31,809 bases of DNA from a virus: positions 1 through 31,809 of IMG/VR virus record IMGVR_UViG_3300017697_000059. One strand, given 5' to 3'. This document shows positions 1 to 27,031 of the stretch, in pieces. Numbering within the stretch: the stretch's first letter is position 1; each line of letters opens with the position of its first letter. Below the pieces are notes generated by a model. It did no database searches, had not been told where the DNA came from, and saw nothing but the letters and a program-made list of their open reading frames with translations. The position numbers were made by a program, and so were the translations under genes.

Positions 1-2040
1 ACAGATACCTTAGTAGGTGTTACAAGAGCTACACATATTTGGGCTGATACCACAGGAAGAAGATTTATAGCCATTGGAACAAACAAAGCTTTGTTTGTTT
101 ATTACGACGGTAAGTTTTATGATATTACTCCAATAGGAGGAGCTTTAACTTCATGCACGTTTACATCTACGAATGGGTCAGCTGTAGTAACAGTAAATAA
201 ATCTGGACATGGTTTAACAGAAGGTGATTTATTTTTATTCAGTAGTGTAACTTTACCAGGTGGAGGAGCTACATCTTTTACTACAGCTAATTTTACTAAT
301 AATACATATCAAGTAATTACAGCAGAGTCTGATACTTTTACAATTACAATGCCTGCAAGTGAAACAGGAACAGCAATGACAGCTGCGGGTAGTGCAACCG
401 TTACTCCTTACTTTGGAATAGGTGATGCTTTTCAAACAGCTGGTTATGGTTTTGGCACAGGTAGGTATGGTGGTGAAACTTTTCCTCTTGCTTCTAATAC
501 ATTAGATGGAGCTTTATTAAATGACTCTGCCGGAACAGGTGGTTCTGGTACAAGTATTACTTTAGATTCTACTACTAATTTTTCATCTGATGGTGGAACT
601 ATATTAATAGATAATGAATTAATAACATACTCAGGTAAAGCTGGAGCAAATCTTACAGGTATATCAAGAGGAGCATCTGGTACAGCAACTGCTGCTCATG
701 ACGATGGTGCATCTGTAATTGAAGCATCTACATATTATGGTTGGGGAAATGCCACTGATGAGACAGCTGTTATTTTAGAACCAGGTAATTGGTCATTAGA
801 TAATTTTGGTGAAATTTTAATTGGTACTATTCGTAATAATAAAACTTTTCAATGGAATCCTTCAGTATCAAATTCTTTAGGAACTAGAGCTACAGTCGTA
901 TCTGGAGCACCAGAAAAAAGTGTTATGAGTTTAATTTCTGATAGGGATAGACATCTTATAATTTTAGGGACAGAACCAACTATAGCAAGTGGTACACAAG
1001 ATAAAATGTTTATACGTTTTTCTGATCAAGAAAGTTTAACAGATTACACACCAACTTCAGTAAACACAGCAGGTACTTTACGAATAGATGCTGGAGCAAA
1101 AATAGTAGGAGGGGTAAACGCTGGCTCTTATAATTTAATTCTTACAGATACTGCTGCATATAGTATGCGTTTTATAGGGCCTCCTTTTACTTTTGGTATT
1201 GAACAAGCTGGGGCAAACTGTGGTTTAATATCACAACATGGCGTTGTAGCTGTAAATGGTGTTGTATATTGGATGGGCCAAGCTGGTGGATTTTATTTAT
1301 TCGATGGTACAGTTAAAAAAATACCTTGTTCAGTTGAAGATTTTGTTTTTACTACAATTGATGATGGAGATTTAGGTTTAAATTTTGATGCCTCCGATGT
1401 TATTTTTGCAGGATACAATTCTTTATTTGGTGAGATAAATTGGTTTTACCCAAAAGCGGGATCATTTCAAATAGATAGGGTTGTGACTTATAATTATTTA
1501 GAAAATTTATGGACAGTTGGTTCATTAGCTAGAACAACTTATTACGACAAAACTGTCTTTGATAATCCTTATGCTACTGATTTTAATGACACGGCAGTAC
1601 CTACTTTTCCTACAATACAAGGAGTTACAAATGTTAATGGTGCTTCTACATTATATGCTCATGAAATTGGTAATAACCAAGTAAACACAAGTGCTACTAC
1701 TCCAATAGTCGGTAGTATTCAAAGCGGAGATTTTGAAGTTACATCAGCTGGAGAAGGTGTTCAAGCAACAGGTGAGTTTTTCTTAACTATACGAAGATTT
1801 GTTCCGGACTTTAGAGCACTTACTGGTAATGCTCAAGTTACAATAAATCTAAAAGATTTTCCAAGTGATACGGAGGCTAGTAGTAGTCTTGGGCCTTTTA
1901 CAGTATCTTCTTCTACACAAAAAGTAGATACAAGAGCTAGAGCCAGAGCAGCTAATTTTAAAATAGAAAATACAGCTACGGATGAAACTTGGAGATATGG
2001 TACTTTTAGAGCAGATACACAAATAGATGGGAGAAGGTAA
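1..2040 (+). CDS. Tail nozzle / packaged-DNA stabilisation-like protein, 5' partial
   Basis: The frame is open from the first base of the window (it reads TDTLVGVTRATHIWADTTGR) with no stop until 2040, so the true start lies upstream and at least 679 codons are present. Visible landmarks are DRDRHLIILG near codons 315-324, WMGQAGGFYLFDG near 424-436, and a C-terminal WRYGTFRADTQIDGRR. This beta-rich, Gly/Thr/Ser-rich layout resembles proteins usually annotated in podoviruses as phage stabilisation proteins (P22 gp10 type), which close the portal/tail channel. The family call is from memory of such sequences; a different tail protein is possible. The next gene starts in the stop codon (TAATG). 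Confidence 0.6.
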   Translation, partial: TDTLVGVTRATHIWADTTGRRFIAIGTNKALFVYYDGKFYDITPIGGALTSCTFTSTNGSAVVTVNKSGHGLTEGDLFLFSSVTLPGGGATSFTTANFTNNTYQVITAESDTFTITMPASETGTAMTAAGSATVTPYFGIGDAFQTAGYGFGTGRYGGETFPLASNTLDGALLNDSAGTGGSGTSITLDSTTNFSSDGGTILIDNELITYSGKAGANLTGISRGASGTATAAHDDGASVIEASTYYGWGNATDETAVILEPGNWSLDNFGEILIGTIRNNKTFQWNPSVSNSLGTRATVVSGAPEKSVMSLISDRDRHLIILGTEPTIASGTQDKMFIRFSDQESLTDYTPTSVNTAGTLRIDAGAKIVGGVNAGSYNLILTDTAAYSMRFIGPPFTFGIEQAGANCGLISQHGVVAVNGVVYWMGQAGGFYLFDGTVKKIPCSVEDFVFTTIDDGDLGLNFDASDVIFAGYNSLFGEINWFYPKAGSFQIDRVVTYNYLENLWTVGSLARTTYYDKTVFDNPYATDFNDTAVPTFPTIQGVTNVNGASTLYAHEIGNNQVNTSATTPIVGSIQSGDFEVTSAGEGVQATGEFFLTIRRFVPDFRALTGNAQVTINLKDFPSDTEASSSLGPFTVSSSTQKVDTRARARAANFKIENTATDETWRYGTFRADTQIDGRR

Positions 2041-2204
2041 TGGCAAAAATAATTACAAACATACCCGATCCAAAAACAGAATATAGTGTAGAGAATCAAA
2101 GATTAATAAACCTAGCTTTAAATCAAATGGTACAAAAATTAAATACTTCTTACCAAGATGATATAAGTAAAGACACACAAACCTTTAACTGGTTTATATC
2201 ATGA
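2040..2204 (+). CDS. Small conserved-position phage protein, 54 aa
   Basis: This short frame starts at an ATG sharing its A with the stop of the tail gene (TAATG) and ends in a TGA overlapping the next ATG (ATGA), so it fills the gap exactly. The product begins MAKIITNIPDPKTEYSVENQ and ends FNWFIS. It looks like one short amphipathic helix (roughly residues 17-40, RLINLALNQMVQKLN) with no signal peptide or membrane segment. Both junctions are typical of translationally coupled phage genes, which is the main support. No function is recognised; its place among tail genes suggests a minor virion or assembly protein. Confidence 0.6.
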   Translation: MAKIITNIPDPKTEYSVENQRLINLALNQMVQKLNTSYQDDISKDTQTFNWFIS

Positions 2205-2542
2205 CAATACAATATAAAAACGCAGGTTTTAATTTATCTTCTACTGGCACTACCTCGATACTTACAGCTCCTACAAGTGGTAGATGTTTAATAAAACAAA
2301 TACAAGCACACAATGGATCAACTGGTGTTGTAACTTTAGTGACTCAAGTTACTGATACTAGTGCAACTGCTACTTTTAGAATAGATAATGCGTCTATTGC
2401 AGCTAATACTACAAGACAAATAATATCACAAACTTTGGTATTAGAAGAAGGTGATATTTTAAAAATGACTGCTGGTACAGCTGATGAGATACAAGGTATA
2501 GTGTCCTATGCTCTTGTAGATCGTTCTTTACAAAATGGTTAA
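2201..2542 (+). CDS. Small beta-rich structural candidate, 113 aa
   Basis: The start overlaps the previous stop as ATGA. The product is rich in Thr, Ser, Val and Ile with alternating hydrophobic strands (for example STGVVTLVTQVTDTS and TRQIISQTLVLEEGDILKMT), as expected of a single beta-sandwich or jelly-roll domain. The EEGDILKMTAGTADEIQG stretch resembles small marine phage proteins often labelled structural or head-fibre-like, but no specific family can be named. Its neighbours are tail genes upstream and two oxygenases downstream. A virion decoration or tail accessory role is inference only. Confidence 0.5.
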   Translation: MTIQYKNAGFNLSSTGTTSILTAPTSGRCLIKQIQAHNGSTGVVTLVTQVTDTSATATFRIDNASIAANTTRQIISQTLVLEEGDILKMTAGTADEIQGIVSYALVDRSLQNG

Positions 2543-2560
2543 TTTTTGTAAAATACAAGA

Positions 2561-3124
2561 ATGCAAATACACGAAGCTATTTATAAATTTGAAAATAGTA
2601 TATCAGAAAAAAATTGTAAGAAATTAATACCTTACATGGATAAAAAATGTTCTGTTAAGGCTCAAATAATTAATGATGATAAAGGACCAAAAATAGATAC
2701 AGAGATAAGGGATGTGTATTCACATTTTTTAAACCCTCATGATTACGGAGCTAAAAGTCACTTTACAGCAGTGGCTAATTCTATTAAAGGAAGTATACAA
2801 AAGTATATGAAATCTTTTCCTTTTGTAAGAAAATTACATATGTCAGATGTGAATATGTTAAAATACGAAAAAGGTCATTTTTTTAAAAAACACACTGATG
2901 CTAACACTCATTTACATAGAATGATTTCTATTATAATAAATTTAAATGAAGGATATGAGGGTGGTGATTTATTGTTTCATAATCCTTCTACATTAAAACC
3001 TTATTCAAAGTTACAATTAAAAACTGGAGATATGGTTTTGTTTCCTAGTAATTTTTTATATCCACACGAAATAACTTCTTTAACAAAAGGAGTAAGATAT
3101 AGTATAGTCGCTTGGTTGTCGTGA
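2561..3124 (+). CDS. Fe(II)/2-oxoglutarate-dependent oxygenase (prolyl 4-hydroxylase-like)
   Basis: The 187-aa product carries the complete metal-binding facial triad: H111 and D113 in KKHTDANTH, and H169 in LYPHEI. R179 in KGVRYSIVAW is the expected 2-oxoglutarate-binding residue. GGDLLFHNP before the second His and LKTGDMVLFPS are the usual beta-strand landmarks of P4H/PKHD-type enzymes. Such enzymes hydroxylate protein side chains or nucleic acid bases; the substrate cannot be read from sequence. The ribosome site is weak. The last codons overlap the second oxygenase start as GTGA, so the two oxygenases are probably translated together. The full domain is present with no truncation. Confidence 0.85.
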   Translation: MQIHEAIYKFENSISEKNCKKLIPYMDKKCSVKAQIINDDKGPKIDTEIRDVYSHFLNPHDYGAKSHFTAVANSIKGSIQKYMKSFPFVRKLHMSDVNMLKYEKGHFFKKHTDANTHLHRMISIIINLNEGYEGGDLLFHNPSTLKPYSKLQLKTGDMVLFPSNFLYPHEITSLTKGVRYSIVAWLS

Positions 3125-3780
3125 AAACTTTATTTGATACAAATAATTTTTGTGTAATAAAAGAAGCAGTTGATAAAAAAATAGTTCAATTTATCTACCA
3201 ATATTTTTTAAACAAAAGAAAAGTAGCTAAATATTTATATAGTAATTTTAAAAAGGTTAATCATTTTGAATGGGGTAGTTGGGAGGATACTCAAATTCCT
3301 AATACTTATTCTAATCATGGTGATCTTGCTATGGATACATTATTGCAAATGTGTTTGCCTCTTATGGAAAAGCACACAGGTGAAAAATTAATTCCTACAT
3401 ATTCTTACGCAAGGTTATATAAAAAAGGGGATGTACTAGCTAGACACAAAGATAGATTTAGTTGTGAAATATCTACTACATTAAATTTAGGTGGAGATAT
3501 ATGGCCTATCTTTATTGAACCTAATTCAGAAAAGGGATATGAAAGTGAAATGTATGGATATACACCTGGTTATACAAAAGGTAAAAAAGTAAATTTAGAA
3601 CAAGGTGATATGTTAATATATAAAGGTAATATATGCGAACACTGGAGAAATGCTTTCGAAGGAGAAATATGTGGTCAAGTTTTTTTGCATTACAATAATA
3701 AAGATACCGAAGGTTCAGAAAAAAACATATATGATAATAGACCACTACTAGGGTTACCTAAAAATTATGTTATAAAATAA
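3121..3780 (+). CDS. Second Fe(II)/2-oxoglutarate-dependent oxygenase
   Basis: I place the start at GTG 3121, which overlaps the previous stop as GTGA; a TTG nine bases upstream is less likely. The 219-aa product has YARLYKKGDVLARHKD with H109 and D111 as metal ligands, then CEISTTLNLGGDIWPIF, and the second His at H174 in CEHWRNAFEG followed by GQVFLHYN. This wording is characteristic of an oxygenase group common in marine phages. The basic 2-oxoglutarate contact is not certain; R176 is a candidate. It is not a simple duplicate of the upstream oxygenase, since sequence outside the catalytic motifs differs. Substrate unknown; a protein or sugar on the virion or host surface is possible. Confidence 0.83.
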   Translation: MKTLFDTNNFCVIKEAVDKKIVQFIYQYFLNKRKVAKYLYSNFKKVNHFEWGSWEDTQIPNTYSNHGDLAMDTLLQMCLPLMEKHTGEKLIPTYSYARLYKKGDVLARHKDRFSCEISTTLNLGGDIWPIFIEPNSEKGYESEMYGYTPGYTKGKKVNLEQGDMLIYKGNICEHWRNAFEGEICGQVFLHYNNKDTEGSEKNIYDNRPLLGLPKNYVIK

Positions 3781-3784
3781 TTTC

Positions 3785-3813
3785 TTGCAAACAAAAGGTA
3801 AATATAGGATATT
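3785..3813 (+). promoter_or_regulatory. Candidate promoter TTGCAA-N17-GATATT
   Basis: In the 39-base gap before the next gene, TTGCAA (3785-3790) is followed after 17 bases by GATATT (3808-3813). The predicted start of transcription, about 7 bases on, falls on the ATG at 3820, which has no Shine-Dalgarno at normal spacing. A leaderless transcript is therefore plausible. A TATACA at 3813-3818 is an alternative -10. Confidence 0.4.
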
Positions 3814-3819
3814 ATACAA

Positions 3820-4014
3820 ATGAAAACAATTCACTGTAAAACAGAAGAAATTTATAGAAACAAAAAAACTAATGTCCGTTATGCAACAAAAGAAGATGCA
3901 GAGCATGATATTAATAACCCTAATACTGATACTAAAAAAGAAGACGTTGTTACAGATGTAAATGTTATAGTTCCGCCAGAAGCTTTAAGTTTAGTAAGTG
4001 GTACGAAAGAATAA
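3820..4014 (+). CDS. Small hydrophilic phage protein, 64 aa
   Basis: The product begins MKTIHCKTEEIYRNKK and is strongly charged, with an Asp/Asn/Lys-rich middle (DAEHDINNPNTDTKKED) and a short hydrophobic tail (VNVIVPPEALSLVSG). No domain is recognised and there is no membrane segment. The stop overlaps the next ATG (TAATG), so it is coupled to the GT-B gene. The start has no clear ribosome site but lies where a transcript from the TTGCAA promoter would begin, suggesting leaderless translation. It may be accessory to the glycosyltransferases, on position alone. Confidence 0.6.
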   Translation: MKTIHCKTEEIYRNKKTNVRYATKEDAEHDINNPNTDTKKEDVVTDVNVIVPPEALSLVSGTKE

Positions 4015-4943
4015 TGTTACCTAGAGGGGGGACAGAATTACAACATCATTTTTTATCACATTATGTTGATAATGACTTGTTATCTAATTTTCAAATTTGT
4101 ACTTCTATTCCAGATAAAATACCCTTATCAAAAGATAAAATAAATATTCTTTGGCAAAAAAATAGTTACGATCAACCAAACATTTACCCTTGGTTTCAAG
4201 ATAAAAACAATCATGATAAATTTGATTGGTACATTTTTAATTCTCATTGGAACTATGAGAAATTTAGATATAAATTTGACGTACCCACACACAAATGTCA
4301 TGTAATTAAAAATGGAGTAACAAACTTTCCTGTTCTAACTCCTTACAAATATGGAGACATGGTACGTATGTTATTTCATGTAACTCCTTGGAGAGGTTTA
4401 AATGTGTTACTTGGTGCTATGCAACAATTAAAAGATTGTAATATTCATCTTGATGTATTTAGTAGTTGTAAAATATATGGAGAAGATTTTGAAAAAGCAA
4501 ATGAAGCATCTTTTGAACCTTTGTATGAGCAAGCGAGAAAGTTAGAAAATGTAAACTACATTGGTTACAAAGAACATTCATTTATACAAAAGTATATGTA
4601 TCGTTATCATATGTTTGCTTATCCTAGTATATGGGAAGAAACAAGTTGTAATGCAGCTTTAGAAGCAATGGCTGGTGGTTTATATTGTATAGTGACTAAT
4701 TTTGGTGCTTTATTTGAAACCTGCTCCGAGTTTCCTATATATGTAACCTATGATAAAAATATTCGTAATTTGTCCACAGCTTTTGCTCATGCTATTCGTG
4801 GTGCAGTAGCCACGATTCACGAGCCAGAGGTATCTGAACACTTACAAATGCAACAAGACTTTGTTAAAAAGTTTTATAGCTGGGATAAGAAAAAAATAGA
4901 ATGGACTAATTTTCTTAAAGGTGTACTAAATGCAAAAAAATGA
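4014..4943 (+). CDS. Glycosyltransferase, GT-B fold (GT1/GT4-like)
   Basis: The 309-aa product has the C-terminal nucleotide-sugar-binding half of a GT-B enzyme. HVTPWRGLNVLLGAMQQL (about 122-139) starts the second Rossmann domain, and the E-x7-E motif lies in EETSCNAALEAMAGG with E209 and E217. ENVNYIGYKEH precedes it as in GT4 enzymes. The N-terminal half is shorter than in bacterial GT4 proteins (about 370-400 aa), but LPRGGTELQHH keeps the usual glycine-rich opening. It probably transfers a sugar from an activated donor; the acceptor could be host surface glycan, virion protein or modified DNA. It overlaps the GT-A gene by 14 bases. Confidence 0.8.
   Translation: MLPRGGTELQHHFLSHYVDNDLLSNFQICTSIPDKIPLSKDKINILWQKNSYDQPNIYPWFQDKNNHDKFDWYIFNSHWNYEKFRYKFDVPTHKCHVIKNGVTNFPVLTPYKYGDMVRMLFHVTPWRGLNVLLGAMQQLKDCNIHLDVFSSCKIYGEDFEKANEASFEPLYEQARKLENVNYIGYKEHSFIQKYMYRYHMFAYPSIWEETSCNAALEAMAGGLYCIVTNFGALFETCSEFPIYVTYDKNIRNLSTAFAHAIRGAVATIHEPEVSEHLQMQQDFVKKFYSWDKKKIEWTNFLKGVLNAKK
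4811..4827 (+). repeat. CACGATTCACGAGCCAG, dispersed 17-mer family
   Basis: Found inside the GT-B gene, encoding TIHEP. A copy with one mismatch is at 19821-19837 (primase, again TIHEP in the same frame) and another at 28616-28632 (non-coding). Confidence 0.6.
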
Positions 4944-5760
4944 TTCTTTATATAACCCTGATGCCAACTGGATAAAAAATAACGATGTAAAGTTATTTGT
5001 AGCTACACCAGTGCATAGTAATGTTTCTATACATTATGCACAATCAATTTTTGGGTTACAAAGATTATGTCACGAGAAAAATATACCTATTACTTTACAT
5101 ATGATGCAATCATCGTTAGTAACAGCAGGTCGTAATTTATGTGTAGCTGATTTTTTAAACTCACCATGCACACACATGTTATTTGTTGATAGTGATATAT
5201 TATTTAAAGCAGAGTCAATTATTAAAATGATTGAAAAAAACCAAGATGTTTTAAGTATACCTTATCCAATGAAAAACATTTTATGGGAAAAAGTATTAGA
5301 TAAATGGAGAGGTATTCCATCAATGAACTCTCTACAAGCTTCAACATCAGGTAATGTATTTCCAGTTAAAATAAAAGGTGATGAAAACGATATAGAAATT
5401 AAAAATGAAATGATTGAGTTATCTCATTCTATGACTGGTTGTATGATGATAAAAAGAGAGGCTTTTAATAAAATGATAAAAAAATACCCCAATTTAACAA
5501 TAAAACAAAAATCTATGGTTGACGGAGAAACAATAACAAAAGATAATTTTTACAATTTTTTTGATACATATTATGATAATAAAACAAAATTATACTATGG
5601 AGAAGACTTTGCTTTCTCAAGATTATGGACTAAAATAGGCGGTAAATGTATGGCTTTAATTACAGAATACATAACTCATGTAGGAGAATATCCATTTAAA
5701 GGTAGGCTTATGGATGAAATGGTAGCTACGGGTCTTGATAAGCCAGAGAAAAACAGTTAA
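4930..5760 (+). CDS. Glycosyltransferase, GT-A fold (GT2-like)
   Basis: The 276-aa product has KLFVATPVHSNVSIHYAQS at the start, SLVTAGRNLCVADFLNS before the nucleotide-binding strand, and a D-x-D metal site at D87-S88-D89 in MLFVDSDILF. YYGEDFAFSRLW (E225, D226) supplies the likely catalytic acidic residues, and H250 in ITHVGEYPF is a plausible third metal ligand. Proteins with this wording are common in marine cyanophages and pelagiphages as putative glycosyltransferases. The start lies 14 bases inside the GT-B gene in another frame. Together the two enzymes could build a two-sugar decoration; donor and acceptor are unknown. Confidence 0.75.
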   Translation: MQKNDSLYNPDANWIKNNDVKLFVATPVHSNVSIHYAQSIFGLQRLCHEKNIPITLHMMQSSLVTAGRNLCVADFLNSPCTHMLFVDSDILFKAESIIKMIEKNQDVLSIPYPMKNILWEKVLDKWRGIPSMNSLQASTSGNVFPVKIKGDENDIEIKNEMIELSHSMTGCMMIKREAFNKMIKKYPNLTIKQKSMVDGETITKDNFYNFFDTYYDNKTKLYYGEDFAFSRLWTKIGGKCMALITEYITHVGEYPFKGRLMDEMVATGLDKPEKNS

Positions 5761-5789
5761 ACTATAGTAATAAACATTAGGAGACATAA

Positions 5790-6641
5790 ATGGCATTTCC
5801 AGTTTTAGCAATGGCAATCGGAGCAGGCATCGGAGCACTGTATACTAAATCTTCAGGGGGATCAAATCGGGACATGATGAAAAACATGTTGTTAGGTGCA
5901 GCACTTGGAACAGGTGCAGGATACGCAGCACCAGGAATGTTTGGTTCAGCAGCTGGAGCACAAGCAGCTGGAGCAGCTGGAGCAGGATCAACACAAGCGG
6001 CTGGATTATACACAGCAGCTGGTAATACTGCTTATGGTGGAGGCTTAGCAAAAACATTAGGTTTATCTGCAACTCAAGCTAAGATGGCAGGTGGAGCAGC
6101 ATTAGCAGCACCTATGATGATGGGTGGTGGGGGTAAACCAATGGACCCACAAGGATTTGATGAAGGAGAATATAGTTCTGAATATGATAAATCTAGAGAA
6201 AACTTACAAGGTTTAGGTGAAAGATTTGATTATGGAAACCAAAATCAACAACAATCTAATCTTTATAATTATCAACAACCTAATCAAAATTATGCTTATG
6301 CTACAGGTGGTATTGTAAACGTAAACACTATACCAAAATTTAGAGAAGGTGGTGTAAACTATTTACCTAGTAAATTAGATCATGATGAAAAAGATCAAAA
6401 TAATTATGTAAGAGCAGAAGGTTATATTGAAGATGCTACAGATATAGCAGACAAGGACAAAGATACAATGTTAGCTCAATTAGCGGATGGTGAATTTGTA
6501 AGTAGAGCAGATGCAATATTAGGTGCTGGTATTATGCAAGGAGCTAATCCAAAAGATTTTAAAGAAATGAGAAAAGAAGGAGCTAAGTTTTTTTACACAC
6601 AACAAGATCAGTTAAAAAGAATATATGACATGGTAAGCTAA
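5790..6641 (+). CDS. Gly/Ala-rich virion candidate with DGEFV motif
   Basis: AGGAG six bases before the ATG fixes the start. The 283-aa product opens with glycine-zipper-like hydrophobic stretches (VLAMAIGAGIGALY at 5-18 and LLGAALGTGAGYAAPGMFG at 34-52) and an Ala/Gly-rich segment to about residue 115. A Gln/Asn/Tyr-rich linker follows (150-170), then a C-terminal domain containing LADGEFVSRADAILGAG (231-247). The DGEFV-x-ADA signature recurs in marine phage structural proteins. The membrane-active-looking N-terminus and place before the internal virion genes suggest a tail-end or DNA-ejection protein; this is inference. It ends in an ATG overlap with the next gene. Confidence 0.55.
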   Translation: MAFPVLAMAIGAGIGALYTKSSGGSNRDMMKNMLLGAALGTGAGYAAPGMFGSAAGAQAAGAAGAGSTQAAGLYTAAGNTAYGGGLAKTLGLSATQAKMAGGAALAAPMMMGGGGKPMDPQGFDEGEYSSEYDKSRENLQGLGERFDYGNQNQQQSNLYNYQQPNQNYAYATGGIVNVNTIPKFREGGVNYLPSKLDHDEKDQNNYVRAEGYIEDATDIADKDKDTMLAQLADGEFVSRADAILGAGIMQGANPKDFKEMRKEGAKFFYTQQDQLKRIYDMVS

Positions 6642-6979
6642 TGATGCTTACTGATGACATCTGGGAAATACTACAACCAGCTGCGGAGATTGGAGATGGA
6701 GCTACAAGAGAAGATGTTGAACAAGGTCTCAAAGACGGAAACTTTTTTTTATTTGCTTATGGGAGAAGTGCTTGTTTAGCTTCAAGTATAAAGAACACTC
6801 TACGTATTGGTTTAGGTGGAGGTAATTTAGCAGAGGTGCAGAAGATAGTAGAAGACATTGAAAAATTTGCAAAAGATAGACATTATAATGCGATTGATAT
6901 TTTAGGTAGATCGGGTTGGCAAAAAGTTTTATCTGGTTATGATAAAAAAGCAGTTTTATTGCGAAAGGAAATTAAATGA
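6641..6979 (+). CDS. Small GNAT-like protein (T7 gp13-like position)
   Basis: The 112-aa product starts MMLTDDIWEILQPAAEIGDG and ends ILGRSGWQKVLSGYDKKAVLLRKEIK. The order of elements (strand with FFLFAYGRSACLASS, then IGLGGGNLAEVQKIVEDIEKFAKDRHYNAIDILGRSGWQKVL) fits the compact acetyltransferase-like fold seen in small phage proteins, including, as I recall, the T7 gp13 family. No conserved acetyl-CoA loop (RxxGxG/A) is visible, so catalysis is doubtful. It sits between two virion candidates with overlapping start and stop codons, so an assembly role for the ejection proteins is likelier than metabolism. Confidence 0.55.
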   Translation: MMLTDDIWEILQPAAEIGDGATREDVEQGLKDGNFFLFAYGRSACLASSIKNTLRIGLGGGNLAEVQKIVEDIEKFAKDRHYNAIDILGRSGWQKVLSGYDKKAVLLRKEIK

Positions 6980-7878
6980 GTTTTATATTTGGAGGAGGCG
7001 GCGGCGGTGGCGGCGGCGGTGGCGGTGCCCAAACTGGAACACAAACTAATATTACAAGAGAAGCTCCAGCTATTGAAGGTAGAAAACTTGCTTTATATGA
7101 TGAAGCAATTGAATTAGCAAAAAAACCTATAGAAGTTCCTGAGTATCAAGTAGCTGGCCCTAGTCCTTTAGAACAACAAGCTTTTAATTTAGCTGGGCAA
7201 ACAGGTACAGGTACAGCAAATCAAAATTTAGGTATTGCATCTATTTTACAAGGTAATCTTGGTGCTACACAACAACCAGATATAGAAGCTTTTATGAATC
7301 CGTACCAAAGATATGTTGTAGATGAAGTAAACAGACAAGCACAAATGAAGGAAAACCAAATATCTGCACAAGCTGTTGAGGCTGGAGCATTTGGAGGTGG
7401 TAGAGAAGGTGTACAAAGAGCTGAAAATGAAAACAGAAGATTAGGTCAGATAGGTCAATTACAACAACAAGGTTTTGGTACAGCGTTAACTGCTGCACAA
7501 TCACAACAAAAATTTCAAACTGATGCTGCATTAAGTGGAGGTCAAGCTTTAATGGGAGCAGGGGCTCAACAAAAACAATTTCAACAAGCAGACATTGCTC
7601 AATTAGGTCAAGCAGGTGGTTTACAAAGACAAATAGCTGATAAAACTTTAGCTGCTCAAAGAGCGACAGACGTAGCACGGGCCTACGAACCTTATCAAAG
7701 AATGGAGTTTGCTAAAGGTATTATGACAACATTACCAACAGCAGCTTCACAAGTAACTCAATCAACTGGTCCTGGATCTAATCCTTTTGCTCAAGCAATT
7801 GGTGCAGGTGTAGGTGCTTATAGTGCTTATCAAATGGTTGGACCAGGTGGTAAAGGAACTGCTGTGGGAGGTAATTAA
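6976..7878 (+). CDS. Internal virion / ejection protein candidate with poly-Gly N-terminus
   Basis: The 300-aa product opens MSFIF followed by twelve consecutive glycines. A helical Gln/Ala-rich body follows: FMNPYQRYVVDEVNRQAQMKEN (about 103-124), then EAGAFGGGREGVQRAENENRR and IGQLQQQGFGTALTAAQSQQ. This wording recurs in marine podovirus and siphovirus genomes for a virion protein near the tail genes. By position it corresponds to T7 gp14, the internal core protein that helps form the DNA-ejection channel. The C-terminus is hydrophobic and Gly-rich (NPFAQAIGAGVGAYSAYQMVG). Start and stop both overlap neighbouring genes by one to four bases. Confidence 0.6.
   Translation: MSFIFGGGGGGGGGGGGAQTGTQTNITREAPAIEGRKLALYDEAIELAKKPIEVPEYQVAGPSPLEQQAFNLAGQTGTGTANQNLGIASILQGNLGATQQPDIEAFMNPYQRYVVDEVNRQAQMKENQISAQAVEAGAFGGGREGVQRAENENRRLGQIGQLQQQGFGTALTAAQSQQKFQTDAALSGGQALMGAGAQQKQFQQADIAQLGQAGGLQRQIADKTLAAQRATDVARAYEPYQRMEFAKGIMTTLPTAASQVTQSTGPGSNPFAQAIGAGVGAYSAYQMVGPGGKGTAVGGN
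6991..7026 (+). repeat. GC-rich (GGN)12 tract encoding poly-glycine
   Basis: Twelve consecutive glycine codons, largely GGC and GGT, form a GC-rich microsatellite inside an otherwise AT-rich gene. Such tracts change length easily by slippage. Confidence 0.85.
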
Positions 7879-10592
7879 TGGCTGTAATAAACCCTTTTAC
7901 TATAGCTATAGCTAGGCAAGGAATTAAAAAAGGTCTTGGTGCTTTTGGTAAATATGTTGGTAGAAAAAAAGCTAAAGCTAAAGTAAAAACTGAAGCTCTA
8001 AAAAAAACAAAGCTTGGTGAAAAAGGTCTTGGTGCTTTTCAAAAAACAAAAGATTTTGCTTCTGGTAAAGGTTTATCGGGTTCTGGAAAATTTATTCCAG
8101 TAAGACAAGGAGTTGGTTATTCTGGTGTAAGAGGAGCAAGAGATATTGCTCAAATGGGAGTTGGAGCTTCTATACCTCTTGAAGGTATTCGAAGTGCAGC
8201 CCCTTTATTTACTGATGAAGATATGACAGCTCAAAACTATGCAGGAATTTTAGCTGCAGCTTTAGGTGCGGGTCCTGGTTTGAGGATGGGAAGAGCAGCT
8301 TTACAAAGACAAGCACCTGGAGTAGGTAAACTTCTTGGAGGTCGAAGAGGAGAAAAATTTGAAAAAAGGTATAAAACAGATAAGTTTGGAAAAGTTGTAA
8401 GAGATAAAAAAGGTAAAAAAATACCTATGAAGGATGAGTTTGATAGAGTAATTAAAGATAAATACCAATTGGATATGGACCCTAAAACAGCAAGACAAGA
8501 CTTGACTAGACAAGTAGGTGCATTTGGTATAATGGGGGCTACTCCTTTTGTTTTTGGTGGGGACAACGAAAAGGTAACAGAATATCCAGATACTTTACCT
8601 GGTGAAGCCGAAAAAGAAGCAGAGTATAATAAATTAACTACAGAGTTAAGTGGTCCTAAAGAAAAAGAGGCAATAGAAGTAATACAAAAAAGACAAGGCA
8701 CTAAAGCAGAATACTCTGAGCAACAAGCAAAAGATATAATATTACAAGCAAGAGAACAAGATGAAGCTAATAAAGTTAAAGGTCCTGAAGAAGGTCAAGT
8801 GCCAGATGAACAAGCTGAAGAACAAGCTACTGTATCTGGAGACGAACAACCTCCTGTTTCTGATAGTAAATTACCTCCAGAAGCTCCTGGTACAGGTGCT
8901 GACAATGAAACTAATTTAGAAATAAATTCAGAACAAGCTATTGAAGATGCAGATAATACTGCTAAAAACATTACTAATCCAGAAATAACTCAACCAAATA
9001 TTGTTGATTCTAAATCTCCTTCAGACGTATTTTTAGCAGCAGATGTTAAAGAAAGAGATTATAAGGGTATGGAATCTGCTATGTCAAAATATAGTGAATT
9101 TATTAAAACTGAAGAAGGTAAAACTCTTAACTATAAAGAATATATAAAAAGATTTAAAGATATGACTGGAGATGACGATCAAGCTGGTAATATTGCTTTA
9201 TTTAAATGGGCTATGGGGATGATGACTGGTAGAAGTAATCAAAATGGTTTAGCTGGTTTTATGGATATTGCTGGTACTGCTGGTCTAAGTTTAGGTGAAG
9301 ATTTAATGGCTATAAACGAAAGAACAAGAGAAGAGAATAGAGCTTTAGCTGGCTCATTTTTAGCATATGAACAAGATGCTCAAAAGTATTTATCTGGATT
9401 AAAGCAAACAGAATTACAACAATTATTAGGTTTTGAAGAAAAAGTTCTAAATGATACAATTGCTGATGAAGATAGAGTATTTGATAGACAATTACAAAGA
9501 CAACAAATTTATTTACAAAAAATGCAAATCATGAAAGAAATCCAAGATAGAAAACAAGACATGATGAAAGCAGGTAAATTACAAACTGTTATACTAAGTG
9601 ACCCAAACGGTTCTAGATTTAAAATTAAAAAAAAGGAAATGGGTAGAAATGATCAAGGTAATTTACTTGTTATTGATGAATTTGTAGATGGTGTGCCTAC
9701 TAATAGATTAATAAAAGAAGAAGAACAAGATAATATCGTAGCTCAAATAGAAACCGATCCAACAAGAGCAGGTAAATTATACAATAGATTAGAAGCTGCA
9801 AATACTGGTTTAAGATTTACAAAAACAGTAAGGGATATTGTAAGTTCTCAATCTGGTGTTGATCTTGGTTCAAGAGGTTATTTTGATAATGTATTTTCTA
9901 ATATTACAGGTTTATACAATGATTGGTCAAACACAAGTGATGTAGGATTAGGTGGTAAACTTAACAACGCTTCTGATGATCAGCAAGTAAGGGCAATGAT
10001 TAATGAAACTTACCTTGACATGGAGGGTTTAACTGGTAAGGAGAAAGAAAATGCACAAAAAGAATATAGAAAGTTAGTTAGTGGATGGAATAAAGATAAA
10101 GAAAGATCATCTGCTCAAGCTAAAAATATAATAAATGAAGGTTTAGATAGTAAGTATGTTCCAAGAGCAATAAGAAATAAATTTAAAGGTAAAAGTGTTG
10201 CGGATAGACAAAAAATAATAAGACAGTTAGCTGAATTAAGATTAATTGAAAATAGAATGAAATATATTGTTGCTAATGCAAATAAAGGAGAAGATAGACT
10301 TACAGTTGCTGACGTTAAAGATGCTGCAGAAAATACTAATATATTTGGTTTATGGGATTCAGAATCAAAAGTTGCAGCAAACTATGCAGCACTAGAGTTA
10401 CAATTAAATACTTCATATGATTCTTTAGCAAATGCTTTTATTATGGTCGGAGGTAATGAGGCTCAATTAGATACTCATAAAAACACAGCAAATTATATTA
10501 ATTGGCAAGCTCAAAAAAATAATAAAAATCAGCCTAAGCAAAAAGCAGATGTAGACACTCTTATAAATAGAATTTACAAGGCAAGACAATAA
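7878..10592 (+). CDS. Large internal virion protein candidate, 904 aa
   Basis: The N-terminus is Lys-rich and amphipathic (GIKKGLGAFGKYVGRKKAKAK), followed by a Gly-rich region with a hydrophobic patch (AFGIMGATPFVFGG, near 216). A long acidic, Pro/Glu/Gln-rich, probably disordered segment runs from about 235 to 385. The rest is mostly helical with many charged residues (for example VFDRQLQRQQIYLQKMQIMKEIQDRKQDMMKAG read as a coiled coil). No catalytic motif, including lysozyme or transglycosylase, was recognised. Size, helical make-up and place after the gp14-like gene match T7 gp15-type ejection proteins by analogy. It is joined to both neighbours by single-base overlaps. Confidence 0.55.
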   Translation: MAVINPFTIAIARQGIKKGLGAFGKYVGRKKAKAKVKTEALKKTKLGEKGLGAFQKTKDFASGKGLSGSGKFIPVRQGVGYSGVRGARDIAQMGVGASIPLEGIRSAAPLFTDEDMTAQNYAGILAAALGAGPGLRMGRAALQRQAPGVGKLLGGRRGEKFEKRYKTDKFGKVVRDKKGKKIPMKDEFDRVIKDKYQLDMDPKTARQDLTRQVGAFGIMGATPFVFGGDNEKVTEYPDTLPGEAEKEAEYNKLTTELSGPKEKEAIEVIQKRQGTKAEYSEQQAKDIILQAREQDEANKVKGPEEGQVPDEQAEEQATVSGDEQPPVSDSKLPPEAPGTGADNETNLEINSEQAIEDADNTAKNITNPEITQPNIVDSKSPSDVFLAADVKERDYKGMESAMSKYSEFIKTEEGKTLNYKEYIKRFKDMTGDDDQAGNIALFKWAMGMMTGRSNQNGLAGFMDIAGTAGLSLGEDLMAINERTREENRALAGSFLAYEQDAQKYLSGLKQTELQQLLGFEEKVLNDTIADEDRVFDRQLQRQQIYLQKMQIMKEIQDRKQDMMKAGKLQTVILSDPNGSRFKIKKKEMGRNDQGNLLVIDEFVDGVPTNRLIKEEEQDNIVAQIETDPTRAGKLYNRLEAANTGLRFTKTVRDIVSSQSGVDLGSRGYFDNVFSNITGLYNDWSNTSDVGLGGKLNNASDDQQVRAMINETYLDMEGLTGKEKENAQKEYRKLVSGWNKDKERSSAQAKNIINEGLDSKYVPRAIRNKFKGKSVADRQKIIRQLAELRLIENRMKYIVANANKGEDRLTVADVKDAAENTNIFGLWDSESKVAANYAALELQLNTSYDSLANAFIMVGGNEAQLDTHKNTANYINWQAQKNNKNQPKQKADVDTLINRIYKARQ

Positions 10593-13500
10593 TGGCTAGT
10601 GCACAACAAATAGAACAACTTCAATCTCAATTAGATTCTGGTGAAATTGATCCAAGACAATTAGATCAAGAACAACAAGATAGTTTAAAAGAATTAATTA
10701 ATAGAGGTGTTTTAACAGCTCCTGCTGGTGGGATAGCCCGTATGTCTGCTGACAGAGATATAGGTGAAACAGGTATTATACAACAAGGTAAAGATGCCAA
10801 TCAATTTGGAGGATTGAGCACACCAGTTGGTAAAGTAATGACAGAAAGATCCTCTTATGAAATGGTTGGTGATGTAATAGGTTCTTTTATACCTTATATA
10901 AATAACAGAAGAGCTATTGTAAAAGATGTAGTTAAAGGAATTTCTTCTACAGATTCAAAAGGAAATGTAGTACAACAAGCTTATACAAAACCAACTGGCA
11001 GAAATGCTTTACGTTTGGATAAATTTGATAAAGTCAATTCAAAACTTGCTGATGCTTTAGGTAAAGTTATTGGAAGAAGAGCAGGAATTGTTGGCAAAGC
11101 TTTTGTAAGAACAGCTTCTTTTTTAGAACAAACTGCAAAAAGGGGTACACAGTTAGTAAAAGCTGAAAGACAAGTTTTAAAAACAGGTGATGTCGGTAGA
11201 AGTATGTTAAGAGCTGGAGCTAGAACAGAAGCACAATCTTTATTAGGAGGATCAGCGGGTGCTGCAACTGGTTCTGCTTTGTATGATTTAGCTAATTATA
11301 ATGAGGACTTAACTGCAAACCTTACTATGGATGTAGCAGATTTAACAGAAGAGGGTATTAATTCAAATCCCTTTCCAATGCGTTTATTATCTCACTCAAT
11401 GATAGCAGCAAAAAACTCTTTACAATGGGGTGTTTTAGGAACTGGTATTGGGTATGCCGCAGGAAGAGCTTTTGGTAAAGGTAAAAAAGCCTTATTAGGA
11501 TTAAATACAGATTCTGCTGTTCAAATGGCTAAAATGTCAGCAGAACAAGGAGTTCCTTTATCTCCAACTGCTCTTGCAAGTGAAGGTTTTGGTGGTTTTT
11601 TATCAAGAAACTTTTTTAAGATATTTGGTGTGACACCTTATGTAGGAGGAGCGGGTACAAAAAAACTTAGAGAAACTGTTGCTGAACAAATGTTTCCAAG
11701 ATATTTAAATATGGCATCCTCTTTAAACCCTAGTACTGCTGTTGCTGGTATCGTATCAGAGTCTGGTCTAGGAGCAGAAGGTATATCTTTAATGACTAAA
11801 AACTATCATATGAATAGTGAGATTATAAATGCAAATTATGATATGCTTTTAAAAAATTCAGTTGCGATGGATCATCCACCTATTATTAAAAATACTAATT
11901 TAAAAAAAGCACTTAGCACAATGGGTGATGAAATAAAAGGAATGGATGGTTCTCAATTTAAAGCTTTTGCCGAACAGCAATTAGATGCAGCACCTAGTAA
12001 AGCAGTAAAAGATAGGTTAACTAATTTAATGATGATTAATAGTTTAAGTGAACTTACTGATCGAGCAAGTATGTCCATATACGATGCTGCTTTATATAAA
12101 AGATTTATATATGATACGATGGGAGACCCCAAAAATATAAAAAGTGTAGAAATGCAACAGCAGGGAAGAGTTATTTTAGATGCTATGGAAAAAGATTTAA
12201 GTGCAGCTGAAATGCTTGGTAAATTAGATTTAAATGATCCAGATGTAGCTAAATTTGTTAATAGTATGAATAAAGGTTCTGCTGAAGCAAATGAGATTGC
12301 AGCTTTAGCCTCATCAAAAAAATTAGCACAAGAACTTAGAAAAACTAATCAAATATATATGCAATTAGTAAACAGTGGTATGTTAGGAATGGGCAAAGCT
12401 CAAAAAGAAGGTGTTTTAGCTAATGCTTTAAATAATCCAGAAATGGTAAACAGCCAAGAAATATTTAATACTATATTTAATAACGCAATAAAAAACCAAA
12501 ATCCTCAAGCTTTAAAACAAATGAAAAAATTATTAGGTGTAGGTAGTGGTGAGTATAATGATTACGCTACTACTTTTATGGGTAAAATGGGTACAAGGTT
12601 TGTTTTTGATGCTTTTACTTCATCTTTTAATCAAGCTGCTAAAAAAGGATCTGATGTTTTTGATCCAGCTGTTGTTTTTAGAGAAGATTTATCTAAAGCT
12701 GATAAAATTATACCAGATATAATTAATAGCAAACCAGAATATCGAGCTTTATTTCCAAATAAAGAGTTAAATGTTACTTCTAATTATGTGGATGCAGATT
12801 TATTTAACAAATTAGAAAAAATTAGAAAAATTAGTCCAGAAGATGCAAAAAGAATAGAAGACTCTTTAAGTTCAAGTGTTTCAGAAATAAAAATTGATCC
12901 AAAAAATATTGATAGTTTTGATATTTCTAGGTTTAGAAAAAACTTAGGTATTGACACTGCTAATGGTAGAGCAACTTTAACAGAATTGTTTGGAGCAGAA
13001 CACACAAAAAATATAGTGGATTTAACAGATGTTTTAACTCGTTCTGTTGATATAGGTATTACAGACCCTTCTGCTTTTTTATTAAGAAAACTTACTTTAT
13101 CTGGAGGAGCAATAGGTGCTACTGGTGTTTTAGGTGGAGTTGCTATGTTTGGTGTAGGTGGTGGTTTACTTGGTGCTATACTACCAGCAGTTGCAGCTAG
13201 ATATTATGGTAAATGGATTGCTAACCCATCCACTACTAAAAAAGCTCTAGATTTATATTCCAAAGAAGAAAGAAGAGCTTTATTACAAGGAGATGTAGCT
13301 GGCCCAATAAAAACTTTTCCTTTTTCTGGTGGGAAAGAAGGAGATTTAGGTGGTTTTTTTGATCCAACTGAACCTTTAGGAAAATTTTTAGGACCCACAA
13401 GAACAAGAAACTTAACTATATTTTTAAATTCTGTAGTAGGTGAGTCTAAAGATAGTCCAAGTTTTAATGCTGATAACATTACATATGATGATATACAAAA

Positions 13501-13894
13501 TTTTTTACAAAATGAAGAAGGCCGTGTAACAATTCCTACTCCAGCAGCTTCACCCTTTCAACTACCTCCATCCGTAATGAAACAGATGTACCCAGAAGCA
13601 TTTGCTTTTAAAGAATTATCTGCGGAAGATAAAAAAACTTATTTAGAAACATTAAGAGCTGCAACACAAGGTGAAACTGAAGATGAAGAGTTTAATAAAC
13701 AAGTAAGTCAAATGCCAGAAGAACAACCTCAACAACAACCCGAGCAACAAGCAATAGTTCCAGAACAACAACCAACTGAGGTAGCTCAAACTCCTAATCA
13801 AAAAGTAAATTTATCTTCTAAATATTCATTTTTATTTCCACAAGATGCTGCTGGACAAGCTATCGCTCAACAACAGGAAGTTAAACGTGGATAA
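10592..13894 (+). CDS. Large internal virion / DNA-ejection protein candidate, 1100 aa
   Basis: This is the largest gene in the window. The N-terminus is Gln/Asp-rich with a helix-loop (SLKELINRGVLTAPAGGIARMS, about 30-51). A hydrophobic glycine-rich region follows near 275-293 (LQWGVLGTGIGYAAGRAFG), and a strong one near 832-875 (IGATGVLGGVAMFGVGGG and following) could insert in a membrane. The C-terminal 60 residues are Pro/Gln-rich and low complexity. Length and membrane-active segments resemble the T7 gp16 class, but no N-terminal transglycosylase catalytic motif could be found. Its end overlaps the next gene by eight bases. Confidence 0.55.
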   Translation: MASAQQIEQLQSQLDSGEIDPRQLDQEQQDSLKELINRGVLTAPAGGIARMSADRDIGETGIIQQGKDANQFGGLSTPVGKVMTERSSYEMVGDVIGSFIPYINNRRAIVKDVVKGISSTDSKGNVVQQAYTKPTGRNALRLDKFDKVNSKLADALGKVIGRRAGIVGKAFVRTASFLEQTAKRGTQLVKAERQVLKTGDVGRSMLRAGARTEAQSLLGGSAGAATGSALYDLANYNEDLTANLTMDVADLTEEGINSNPFPMRLLSHSMIAAKNSLQWGVLGTGIGYAAGRAFGKGKKALLGLNTDSAVQMAKMSAEQGVPLSPTALASEGFGGFLSRNFFKIFGVTPYVGGAGTKKLRETVAEQMFPRYLNMASSLNPSTAVAGIVSESGLGAEGISLMTKNYHMNSEIINANYDMLLKNSVAMDHPPIIKNTNLKKALSTMGDEIKGMDGSQFKAFAEQQLDAAPSKAVKDRLTNLMMINSLSELTDRASMSIYDAALYKRFIYDTMGDPKNIKSVEMQQQGRVILDAMEKDLSAAEMLGKLDLNDPDVAKFVNSMNKGSAEANEIAALASSKKLAQELRKTNQIYMQLVNSGMLGMGKAQKEGVLANALNNPEMVNSQEIFNTIFNNAIKNQNPQALKQMKKLLGVGSGEYNDYATTFMGKMGTRFVFDAFTSSFNQAAKKGSDVFDPAVVFREDLSKADKIIPDIINSKPEYRALFPNKELNVTSNYVDADLFNKLEKIRKISPEDAKRIEDSLSSSVSEIKIDPKNIDSFDISRFRKNLGIDTANGRATLTELFGAEHTKNIVDLTDVLTRSVDIGITDPSAFLLRKLTLSGGAIGATGVLGGVAMFGVGGGLLGAILPAVAARYYGKWIANPSTTKKALDLYSKEERRALLQGDVAGPIKTFPFSGGKEGDLGGFFDPTEPLGKFLGPTRTRNLTIFLNSVVGESKDSPSFNADNITYDDIQNFLQNEEGRVTIPTPAASPFQLPPSVMKQMYPEAFAFKELSAEDKKTYLETLRAATQGETEDEEFNKQVSQMPEEQPQQQPEQQAIVPEQQPTEVAQTPNQKVNLSSKYSFLFPQDAAGQAIAQQQEVKRG

Positions 13895-15468: not shown

Positions 15469-15530
15469 CCTATACTTATAGTAAAGTATGGGAAATCTTA
15501 TATCAAACATTCCATACTTTAAAGTATGGG
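15469..15530 (+). promoter_or_regulatory. Start-codon hairpin and 18-bp palindrome
   Basis: CCTATACTT (15469-15477) pairs over 9 bp (one G-U) with AAGTATGGG (15484-15492), placing the ATG at 15488 inside the stem. CCATACTTT and AAAGTATGG (15512-15529) form a perfect 18-bp palindrome. CCATACTTTA (15512-15521) can also pair with the start region TAAAGTATGG (15482-15491) over 10 bp, so the folds are mutually exclusive. No Shine-Dalgarno is seen before this ATG. Confidence 0.5.
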
Positions 15531-16165
15531 TACGTAGAGAGTTTACAACTAACCATAGAAAATATCATGGTGACTATCTACATGCTTTAGTGGTAGCTGT
15601 TACAACTATTCCAGATAGATGTCTATCCTTCCAAGTCATCTTTACTGGGTGTGAAGATGAAGACAATCGTTTGGAAAACCCCCACGGGGGGGCAATGTGG
15701 GCTCGACTTCCTATAACGTCTTTAGTATACGATGACCCACTGGATGAATGGCCTAACCCTATGCCAACTCATTTAGCTCAACCGTGGGATTGTTCTAGTA
15801 GAGATCATTCTATTATAAATATTAACAGAGTTAGTTCTAGTCCTTGGTTATGTAAAGTAGGGGGAGAATTTTATACAGGTAAATATCATTTTACTGTTGA
15901 TTATACAGGTAATGAGATAGCTGATGATCCAGCTCAACATAAGCAAAGTCATTTATTACATTTAACTAATGGTCCTTACAAAGGTTGCATGGTTGCTTTA
16001 CCTAATAATAGAGTAAGAGTAACTTCTCCAGCTATGTGGGTAACTGGTGAGGGAGCACCAGATTTTATACCTAGTCAATATACACATAGTGCTGAAGAAC
16101 ACGATAGCTATATGGATTGGGAACAAACCTTTGATAATTTGTATGCAGATAAAAAGAAAAAATAA
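15488..16165 (+). CDS. Conserved marine-phage protein of unknown function, 225 aa
   Basis: The product begins MGNLISNIPYFKVWVRREF and contains HGGAMWARLPITSLVYDDPL (about 66-85), HLAQPWDCSSRDHS (95-108), WLCKVGGEFYTGKYHFTVDYTGNE and HKQSHLLHLTNGPYKGCMVALPNNRVRV. I recall closely similar wording in cyanophage and pelagiphage hypothetical proteins, so this is a conserved family rather than chance. It has no catalytic motif I recognise, no signal peptide and no membrane segment; Trp, His and Cys content suggests a compact beta-rich fold. The start codon is buried in a hairpin. It overlaps the nuclease gene by 23 bases and precedes the replication genes. Confidence 0.7.
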   Translation: MGNLISNIPYFKVWVRREFTTNHRKYHGDYLHALVVAVTTIPDRCLSFQVIFTGCEDEDNRLENPHGGAMWARLPITSLVYDDPLDEWPNPMPTHLAQPWDCSSRDHSIININRVSSSPWLCKVGGEFYTGKYHFTVDYTGNEIADDPAQHKQSHLLHLTNGPYKGCMVALPNNRVRVTSPAMWVTGEGAPDFIPSQYTHSAEEHDSYMDWEQTFDNLYADKKKK

Positions 16166-25586: not shown

Positions 25587-26543
25587 ATGAAACAAGAAAA
25601 GAAAATAAACGTATTATCATTATTTGATGGCATGAGTTGTGGTCAAATAGCATTAAAAAAACTAGGTGTACAAGTGGGTGATTATTACGCAAGTGAAATT
25701 GATAAGTATGCAATTAAGGTTGCTAAAGAAAACTTTCCTAACATAGTGCACTTAGGTGATGTTACTAAAATACATGCTACTTATTTAAAGATTGATTTGT
25801 TAATTGGTGGTAGTCCGTGTCAAGGATTTAGTAAAGCTGGCAACAATTTAAACTTTGAAGACCCAAGAAGTAAATTGTTTTTTGAGTTTGTACGTATTTT
25901 AAATGAGTGTAAACCTAAATATTTTTTATTAGAGAATGTTAAAATGAAGAAAGAATCAGAGGATATTATAACTCAATATTTAGGGGTTAAACCTATTGAG
26001 ATAAATTCTTCATTAGTGTCTGGACAAAGTAGAAAGAGATTATATTGGACAAACATACCTAATATCACGACCCCCGAGGATAAGGGTATTGTTATTAGAG
26101 ATATTCTTGAAGACGAGGGTATAGCTGATATGGTTGTAAACCAAGGTAAACATTTATACAAAGCAGATATAAAAAAATCTCATTGTCTTATGGCTAGAGA
26201 TTATAAAGGTTTTGGTAATCAGTCTATGACTGGAGTCAGAAGAGTTGGTACAGCAGTAAATATAAATGGTCACGATATACTAAAACGTGTATATGCTGTT
26301 GAAGGTAAGTCTCCTACATTAAATACTTGTACGGGAGGAAACCGTGAACCTAAAATACCAGTTACAGAAAAGTTATGGCGTAAGCTTACACCTTTAGAAT
26401 GTGAGCGTTTACAAACTGTTCCAGATAATTACACGGGTTCGGTGTCCAACAGCCAGCGATACAAGATGTTAGGTAATGGTTGGACAGTAGATGTAATTGC
26501 ACATATATTTAAATCAATGAAAAAGGAAATAGACGATGAGTAA
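25587..26543 (+). CDS. DNA (cytosine-5) methyltransferase, orphan
   Basis: The 318-aa product has the C5 methyltransferase motifs in order: I LSLFDGMSCGQ (10-20), IV GGSPCQGFS with nucleophile C78, VI ENV (116-118), VIII QSRKRLYW (147-154), IX RKLTPLECERLQ (265-276) and X LGNGW (295-299). A target-recognition region lies between about 165 and 255. It methylates cytosine using S-adenosylmethionine; target sequence unknown. No restriction enzyme is beside it, so it more likely shields phage DNA or tunes phage or host expression. It has its own promoter, a 5' hairpin, and a minus-strand small gene transcribed away from it. Confidence 0.92.
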   Translation: MKQEKKINVLSLFDGMSCGQIALKKLGVQVGDYYASEIDKYAIKVAKENFPNIVHLGDVTKIHATYLKIDLLIGGSPCQGFSKAGNNLNFEDPRSKLFFEFVRILNECKPKYFLLENVKMKKESEDIITQYLGVKPIEINSSLVSGQSRKRLYWTNIPNITTPEDKGIVIRDILEDEGIADMVVNQGKHLYKADIKKSHCLMARDYKGFGNQSMTGVRRVGTAVNINGHDILKRVYAVEGKSPTLNTCTGGNREPKIPVTEKLWRKLTPLECERLQTVPDNYTGSVSNSQRYKMLGNGWTVDVIAHIFKSMKKEIDDE

Positions 26544-26709: not shown

Positions 26710-27031
26710 AGATTTAAGAGGATATTATAAAGTTAGAAGCCATCACGATTTATTTCGTGATTTAAAAGATATTTTAGCTAACGTACACGTAACAGATGTT
26801 CGAGGTAATCCTACGGAACAAGCTGGAGATCATGGGGATGTTATAAAAGCAATAGAAAATATGTATGCAGATTTTGACAGTACAGGTAGAGATTTTTTAT
26901 TTGAGGAATTGTTAGCTAGAAAATTAGTTAAACTTAAAATACAATATCAATTGTCTCAAAGAGATAATGTTGTCGAAAGAAATACAGCAGAAGAAGCTGC
27001 TGGAGAGGTGATGGGTAATGACGAAGGCTAA
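26702..27031 (+). CDS. Hypothetical helical protein, 109 aa
   Basis: AGGAG eight bases before ATG 26702 decides the start; a GTG three bases upstream is in frame. The product begins MPKDLRGYYKVRSHHDLFRD and contains a helical middle (GDHGDVIKAIENMYADFDST, then FLFEELLARKLVKLKIQYQL) and an acidic tail. No catalytic motif or known domain is visible. It overlaps the PP-loop gene by 14 bases and is translationally coupled to it, so it may be a partner or regulator of that enzyme. Confidence 0.6.
   Translation: MPKDLRGYYKVRSHHDLFRDLKDILANVHVTDVRGNPTEQAGDHGDVIKAIENMYADFDSTGRDFLFEELLARKLVKLKIQYQLSQRDNVVERNTAEEAAGEVMGNDEG

Follow-up and report, generated by a model that had tools for sequence, protein, structure and literature searches.

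Phages are known to modify DNA bases with gene sets that pair a TET/JBP oxygenase with a glycosyltransferase (GT), and the GTs encoded by mycobacteriophages reportedly glycosylate virion proteins. Closest to the locus described below are the pelagiphages HTVC023P and HTVC027P, which carry the same gene block and the same pair of GTs, one of which (GT-A) was left unannotated in their records. The locus lies in IMG/VR record IMGVR_UViG_3300017697_000059, a stretch of 31,809 bases called the window hereafter. Judged by the closest named phages to its proteins, the window belongs to the HTVC023P-type pelagiphage lineage: HTVC023P, HTVC027P, HTVC033P and 023Pt_psg01 are the nearest named phages for its virion protein, its GTs and one of its oxygenases (oxy2). 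A search of the phage collection returned no near-identical DNA to window positions 1-12000. A host among SAR11, the ocean's commonest bacteria, is supported because a Pelagibacteraceae single-cell contig (AG-919-D18, locus L177) holds the whole block, with GT-B, GT-A and an oxygenase. Oxygenases, 'ferrochelatases' and GTs have already been published for this lineage (PMC9599517); in the accessible part of that paper, we found no mention of the gene triad, the GT-A partner, the insertion slot, the promoter or the oxygenase nature of oxy2 that are described here.

The original prediction placed four enzymes in the virion block, namely two GTs and two 2-oxoglutarate (2OG)-Fe(II) oxygenases, and profiles, folds and invariant catalytic residues confirm all four. 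How these enzymes belong together is another question. From sequence comparison, the two GTs and the small protein before them, s64, look like a conserved, strictly linked glycosylation cassette, and the oxygenases look like a separate, mobile module. Among the acceptors considered, a virion protein appears the likeliest, and we tentatively propose that the cassette equips it with a short glycan.

The s64–GT-B–GT-A cassette

The cassette comprises three overlapping genes:

3820-4014, + strand: s64, a conserved protein of 61-83 amino acids (64 here) preceding GT-B; candidate acceptor, scaffold or GT subunit
4014-4943, + strand: GT-B, a GT4-like glycosyltransferase whose start overlaps the s64 stop (TAATG); PF00534 E 2e-11; phrog_2170
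4930-5760, + strand: GT-A, a glycosyltransferase of GT-A fold overlapping GT-B; phrog_1574 E 4.1e-31, function unnamed

The 64-amino-acid protein had been predicted from the window itself, and it proves to be conserved: in the GT-B loci sampled (the best 80 of 547), its family precedes GT-B in 79, the 80th being cut at GT-B. The best PHROG E-value among 36 members of the s64 family is 0.009. GT-B reaches 44.2 bits against PF00534 (cut-off 26.4), and the glutamates of its EX7E motif, E209 and E217, are invariant (31/31). In GT-A, the aspartates of a DxD motif (D87, D89) are conserved together with E225, D226 and H250 in all 42 sequences compared. A sequence search of solved structures gave no useful match for either GT. 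The idea that s64 supplies a missing first strand of GT-B was dropped, since T4-like GT-B homologues also begin near the GG loop.

How strict is the linkage? GT-A follows GT-B in each of the 69 loci with at least 600 nucleotides (nt) beyond GT-B. A second sample was anchored on the neighbouring virion protein at 1-2040 (the best 80 of 597 loci) so as to avoid selection by GT-B; of its 80 loci, 30 had the 3.5 kb or more downstream that made them evaluable. Both GTs were present in 22 of these, neither in 8, and no locus was discordant (Fisher 1.7e-7, a value that overstates independence because the loci are related). The two genes also co-occur in named phages, where GT-A accompanies GT-B in every one of 15 records (14 by accession and Rhizobium phage RHph_I1_18 by organism tally); in several named phages, T4-like ones included, they lie far apart.

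Some variation around the cassette was observed. A 105-amino-acid open reading frame (ORF) lies between s64 and GT-B in some of the near loci, defined as those with a GT-B at least 75% identical to that of the window (L006, L015, L016, L019, L021-L025). Second copies of the GT-A family occur within the same phage in HTVC027P (3508-4158) and in the record of locus L055 (G014). Genome contigs yielded 17 GT-A loci: seven are weak matches (20-28%), and ten are 44-50% identical and are read, from synteny or identity, as phage contigs in metagenome-assembled genomes or a single cell. The neighbours of a GT-A homologue in Chelatococcus gave no lead.

Three further genes of the block lie to the left:

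1-2040, + strand: virion structural protein, left anchor of the block, open at the window's left end; phrog_3287 E 1.3e-71
2040-2204, + strand: s54, a small block protein; phrog_32936 E 9e-15; position conserved in GT-B loci
2201-2542, + strand: s113, a small protein at the left edge of a variable slot; phrog_1276 E 3.2e-8; position conserved in GT-B loci

The virion protein is 46-56% identical to proteins of 023Pt_psg01, HTVC027P and HTVC023P, and throughout the lineage the cassette has virion genes as its neighbours. A position among tail and ejection genes had been predicted. Its virion-block part stands, given the phrog_3287 match of the left neighbour, but ejection genes are not shown, as profile searches gave no informative family match for the genes at 5790-13894 to the right of the GTs. 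Further along the + strand, one protein matches phrog_3704 ('ferredoxin', 15488-16165) and another phrog_424 (PAPS reductase-like, 27018-27890).

Two oxygenases and a variable slot

Between s113 and s64 lie the two oxygenase genes and a short intergenic element:

2561-3124, + strand: oxy1, a prolyl-4-hydroxylase-like 2OG-Fe(II) oxygenase that occupies the slot as an insert; PF13640 E 5.6e-17
3121-3780, + strand: oxy2, a second 2OG-Fe(II) oxygenase-like protein whose GTG start overlaps the oxy1 stop; phrog_2954 E 8.6e-45
3785-3813, + strand: promoter-like element TTGCAA-N17-GATATT, with 6 nt between its second hexamer and the s64 ATG

Oxy1 scores 62.9 bits against PF13640 (cut-off 27), and its HxD...H...R residues are invariant in 15/15 aligned relatives (H111, D113, H169, R179), with the 2OG-binding arginine R179 ten residues past the second histidine; weak phmmer matches are to PiuC-type hydroxylases and a prolyl 3-hydroxylase. 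The two oxygenases had been described as fused by a GTGA overlap. The overlap is real, the GTG start of oxy2 lying within a GTGA that holds the TGA of oxy1, but the frames merely overlap and the proteins are not fused.

The PHROG family of oxy2, phrog_2954, is labelled 'ferrochelatase'. On its own, oxy2 has no Pfam match, and ferrochelatase profiles matched none of 45 family members in Pfam (E<=1) and none of five proteins in NCBIfam. Its AlphaFold (AF2) model is confident (mean predicted local distance difference test, pLDDT, 95) and shows the double-stranded beta-helix fold of 2OG oxygenases. The best fold match is SnoN (Z 17.5, 195 residues, 3.3 Å), followed by BesD-type hydroxylases and halogenases (Z ~16.6), the P. 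putida prolyl-4-hydroxylase (P4H; 16.0) and PHD2 (16.0); no ferrochelatase is among the Foldseek and structure matches listed, an absence that proves nothing by itself. The HxD...H iron triad (H109, D111, H174) is invariant in 43/43, and a weak alignment of the oxy1 profile with that of oxy2 spans this motif (hhalign probability 65, E 6.1e-5). In the best 80 of 594 oxy2 loci (L086-L165), oxy2 is directly preceded by a further 2OG oxygenase gene in 73 of the 77 that are evaluable, with a gap of <60 nt in 58; two of the remaining loci have an oxygenase downstream only, two have none and three are not judgeable. The residue that anchors 2OG varies between 2OG-oxygenase families. At the corresponding site of oxy2, ten residues after the second histidine, stands Cys184, and the invariant R98, R176, Q186 and R207 are candidate anchors; because an arginine is absent from the usual place, catalysis by oxy2 is best called putative. 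From sequence and model, then, oxy2 appears 2OG-oxygenase-like and the name 'ferrochelatase' looks wrong. The name has consequences in the literature: oxygenases and 'ferrochelatases' are reported side by side in this lineage and the latter are discussed as genes of haem and iron regulation (PMC9599517, accessible part), and phrog2954 'ferrochelatase' is listed among potential metabolic genes and found to be enriched in phages with seasonal dynamics (PMC11561400, accessible part). Should oxy2 indeed be a second 2OG oxygenase, the 'ferrochelatase' genes of both papers, as far as their accessible parts describe them, would be members of oxygenase pairs, and a name in use in ecological work would be corrected. 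One narrow literature search found no published correction of the phage 'ferrochelatase' name.

The oxygenases do not follow the GTs. Of 77 GT-B loci in which the s113–s64 slot is evaluable, 15 have an oxy1-like gene there, all 15 being among the 18 evaluable near loci, and none has oxy2 there. Where oxy2 does occur, in 12 of the 80 GT-B loci, it always lies upstream of the virion protein. Across the 15 slot loci, oxy1 is only 37-47% identical to that of the window, compared with 75-88% for GT-B in the same loci. When 21 long relatives were searched whole, 19 had both GTs; six of these 19 had no match to PF13640, phrog_61, phrog_81 or phrog_2954, and the two relatives with no GTs, HTVC033P and 023Pt_psg01, have oxygenases. 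Because the GTs and s64 travel together and the oxygenases track them in neither direction, the four enzymes look like two modules and not one pathway. The hydroxylation-then-glycosylation route that the original prediction drew across all four genes is thus not borne out, though such coupling may still occur within the one sublineage to which the window belongs.

A promoter had been proposed after the oxygenases. The TTGCAA-N17-GATATT pattern, which was picked after viewing the sequences, occurs in 16 of 21 near loci including the window (14 of 18 when only distinct stretches are counted), where shuffles give 0.6; none of 34 far loci has it. The three near loci with no oxy1 in the slot (L010, L011, L013) also lack the element; L009 and L012 lack it despite having oxy1. 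A conserved promoter-like element thus seems to accompany the oxygenase insert, which keeps the core of the proposal; a generic promoter scan of 1900-6300 gave it no backing, with 21 sites compared with 25.1 in shuffles. With its second hexamer 6 nt from the s64 ATG, the element would yield a leaderless transcript if used at the usual distance.

Candidate acceptors

How might the two modules work? Late in infection, a virion protein made at the same time would receive a short glycan from s64, GT-B and GT-A, each enzyme adding one sugar. The oxygenases would form a second module, a tandem whose slot within the block differs between loci and which here sits between s113 and s64 and may bring a promoter that re-starts transcription of the GT module. 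Most likely they hydroxylate protein independently of the GTs, with virion or tail-fibre proteins as first candidates.

A virion protein is favoured as the acceptor because the cassette is fixed beside virion genes and because of the company that the GT-A fold keeps. The AF2 model of GT-A (pLDDT 83) has a GT-A fold, and its best solved match is STIV A197 (Z 17.3, 163 residues, 2.4 Å). LH3 (17.3), mimivirus R699 (15.8), COLGALT1 (15.4) and Mnn9 (15.1) follow, at 10-13% identity to the collagen GTs; a COLGALT1-type entry (9u7h) reaches Z 14.2, and the unrelated matches after it Z 13.2. By sequence, the window protein falls short of the Anp1/Mnn9 family, with 15.5 bits against PF03452 (cut-off 28.8); 42 of 44 GT-A family members match Anp1 weakly at E<=1 (best 2.1e-6). 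In the accessible parts of the respective papers, the capsid protein is the suggested substrate of A197 (PMC10551542) and R699 glucosylates collagen (PMC9546862). The virion-protein decoration of the original prediction therefore remains the leading reading for the GTs, on virion-block position and GT-A fold.

Several points weigh against this reading. A fold match shows no function, and GT-A matches LH3 over chain residues 293-536, presumably the accessory domain, not over the GT domain at its N terminus. Members of this GT-A family in T4-like relatives stand among replication genes, which suggests DNA rather than a virion protein there. The closest named NCBIfam models to GT-B are exopolysaccharide (EPS) and lipopolysaccharide (LPS) transferases, and the GT-B homologue of phage Cr30 lies among sugar-nucleotide genes. 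Absences are soft throughout because most records, many of them IMG/VR contigs, are fragments. As to the independence of the oxygenases, 15 of the virion-anchored loci extend far enough to the left and right, and an oxygenase is nearby in 11/12 with GTs and 2/3 without (p 0.37), too few cases to exclude an association.

The GT-B matches, which are to GT4 transferases and all far below cut-off, would fit modification of a host-surface or lipid-linked glycan, with superinfection exclusion or receptor change as the outcome, as would the neighbours of the Cr30 gene, which encode UDP-glucose 4-epimerase, heptose kinase and phosphoheptose isomerase. However, the annotations of HTVC023P and HTVC027P show no sugar-nucleotide gene next to the GT pair, and the lineage-wide neighbours are virion-block genes, so that we regard this explanation as unlikely.

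We give a similarly low probability to DNA hypermodification, in which an oxygenase would hydroxylate a (methylated) base and the GTs would glycosylate it to protect the phage DNA. The window does encode a C5-cytosine DNA methylase (25587-26543, + strand; PF00145 E 1.8e-50), and in two distant carriers of GT-B and GT-A, the T4-like phages DLP_6 and Cr30, a Tet_JBP domain lies ~1.4 kb and ~6 kb from GT-A, respectively, among replication genes, making hypermodification possible in these phages. Both Tet_JBP domains are in proteins annotated 'SNF2 DNA repair' (DLP_6, KU682439.2, 27833-28279; Cr30, KF301602.1, 59584-60027). For the pelagiphage lineage the case is weakened. Profile searches gave no Tet_JBP match for oxy1 or oxy2, nor for any of 19 relatives; thymidylate synthase (PF00303) is found in 0/21 relatives, the fragmentary window itself not having been searched whole for it; and the C5-methylase is present in just two of the 21, although 19 have both GTs. 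Ochrobactrum phage OC has both GTs, yet no thymidylate synthase, Tet_JBP or C5-methylase, and the GTs of the window sit in the virion block, not among replication genes.

Somewhat less likely still is a collagen-like coupling, with the oxygenases creating hydroxyl acceptors on a protein that GT-A and GT-B then extend. The prolyl-hydroxylase-like character of oxy1 (PF13640, weak phmmer matches), the oxy1-like gene that 15 of 18 evaluable near loci have in the slot and the collagen hydroxylysine galactosyltransferase and mimivirus collagen glucosyltransferase among the best GT-A folds all speak for it; six of 19 GT-carrying records with no detected 2OG oxygenase, and oxygenases that occur without GTs, speak against it, as does the lack of a collagen-like (GXY)6 run in the window, itself a fragment. 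Glycine-rich (GXY)6 runs do occur in 21/80 oxy2 loci and 4/80 GT-B loci, but the ORFs concerned in oxy2 loci number 22 compared with 10.8 in shuffled proteins, a twofold excess that is partly driven by composition, and we did not use them as evidence of a collagen-like acceptor. Of these 22 ORFs, 21 sit 3-8 ORFs upstream of oxy2 and are perhaps tail fibres. We doubt most of all the fully specified version, a collagen-style pathway on the phage's own particle. In this version lysine or proline residues in a virion protein such as s64, s113 or a fibre would be hydroxylated by the oxygenases, the hydroxyl would take its first sugar from GT-A, in the manner of COLGALT1, and GT-B would supply the second; relatives lacking the insert would use plain serine or threonine, the insert switching or widening the acceptor.

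Relation to known systems

Finally, we would place the cassette among glycosylation systems described elsewhere. The triad is compact and strictly linked, and the marine phage lineage that carries it is widespread; virion glycosylation is directly testable here because HTVC023P and HTVC027P, which carry the triad, and HTVC033P, which has oxygenases in its absence, are all in culture. TET/JBP-plus-GT systems are alike in their content of oxygenase and GT genes; unlike them, the oxygenases of the window have no Tet_JBP match, and the domain is found in 0/19 relatives. With the collagen GTs COLGALT1, LH3 and R699, the likeness lies in the shared GT-A fold (Z 15.4-17.3) and in the logic of hydroxylation followed by sugar transfer (PMC9546862, accessible part), whereas the window GT-A is 10-13% identical to them, the window has no collagen-like run and the GTs have no obligatory oxygenase partner. 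STIV A197 comes from an archaeal virus unrelated to that of the window; what the two have in common is a virus-coded GT of GT-A fold (PMC10551542, accessible part).

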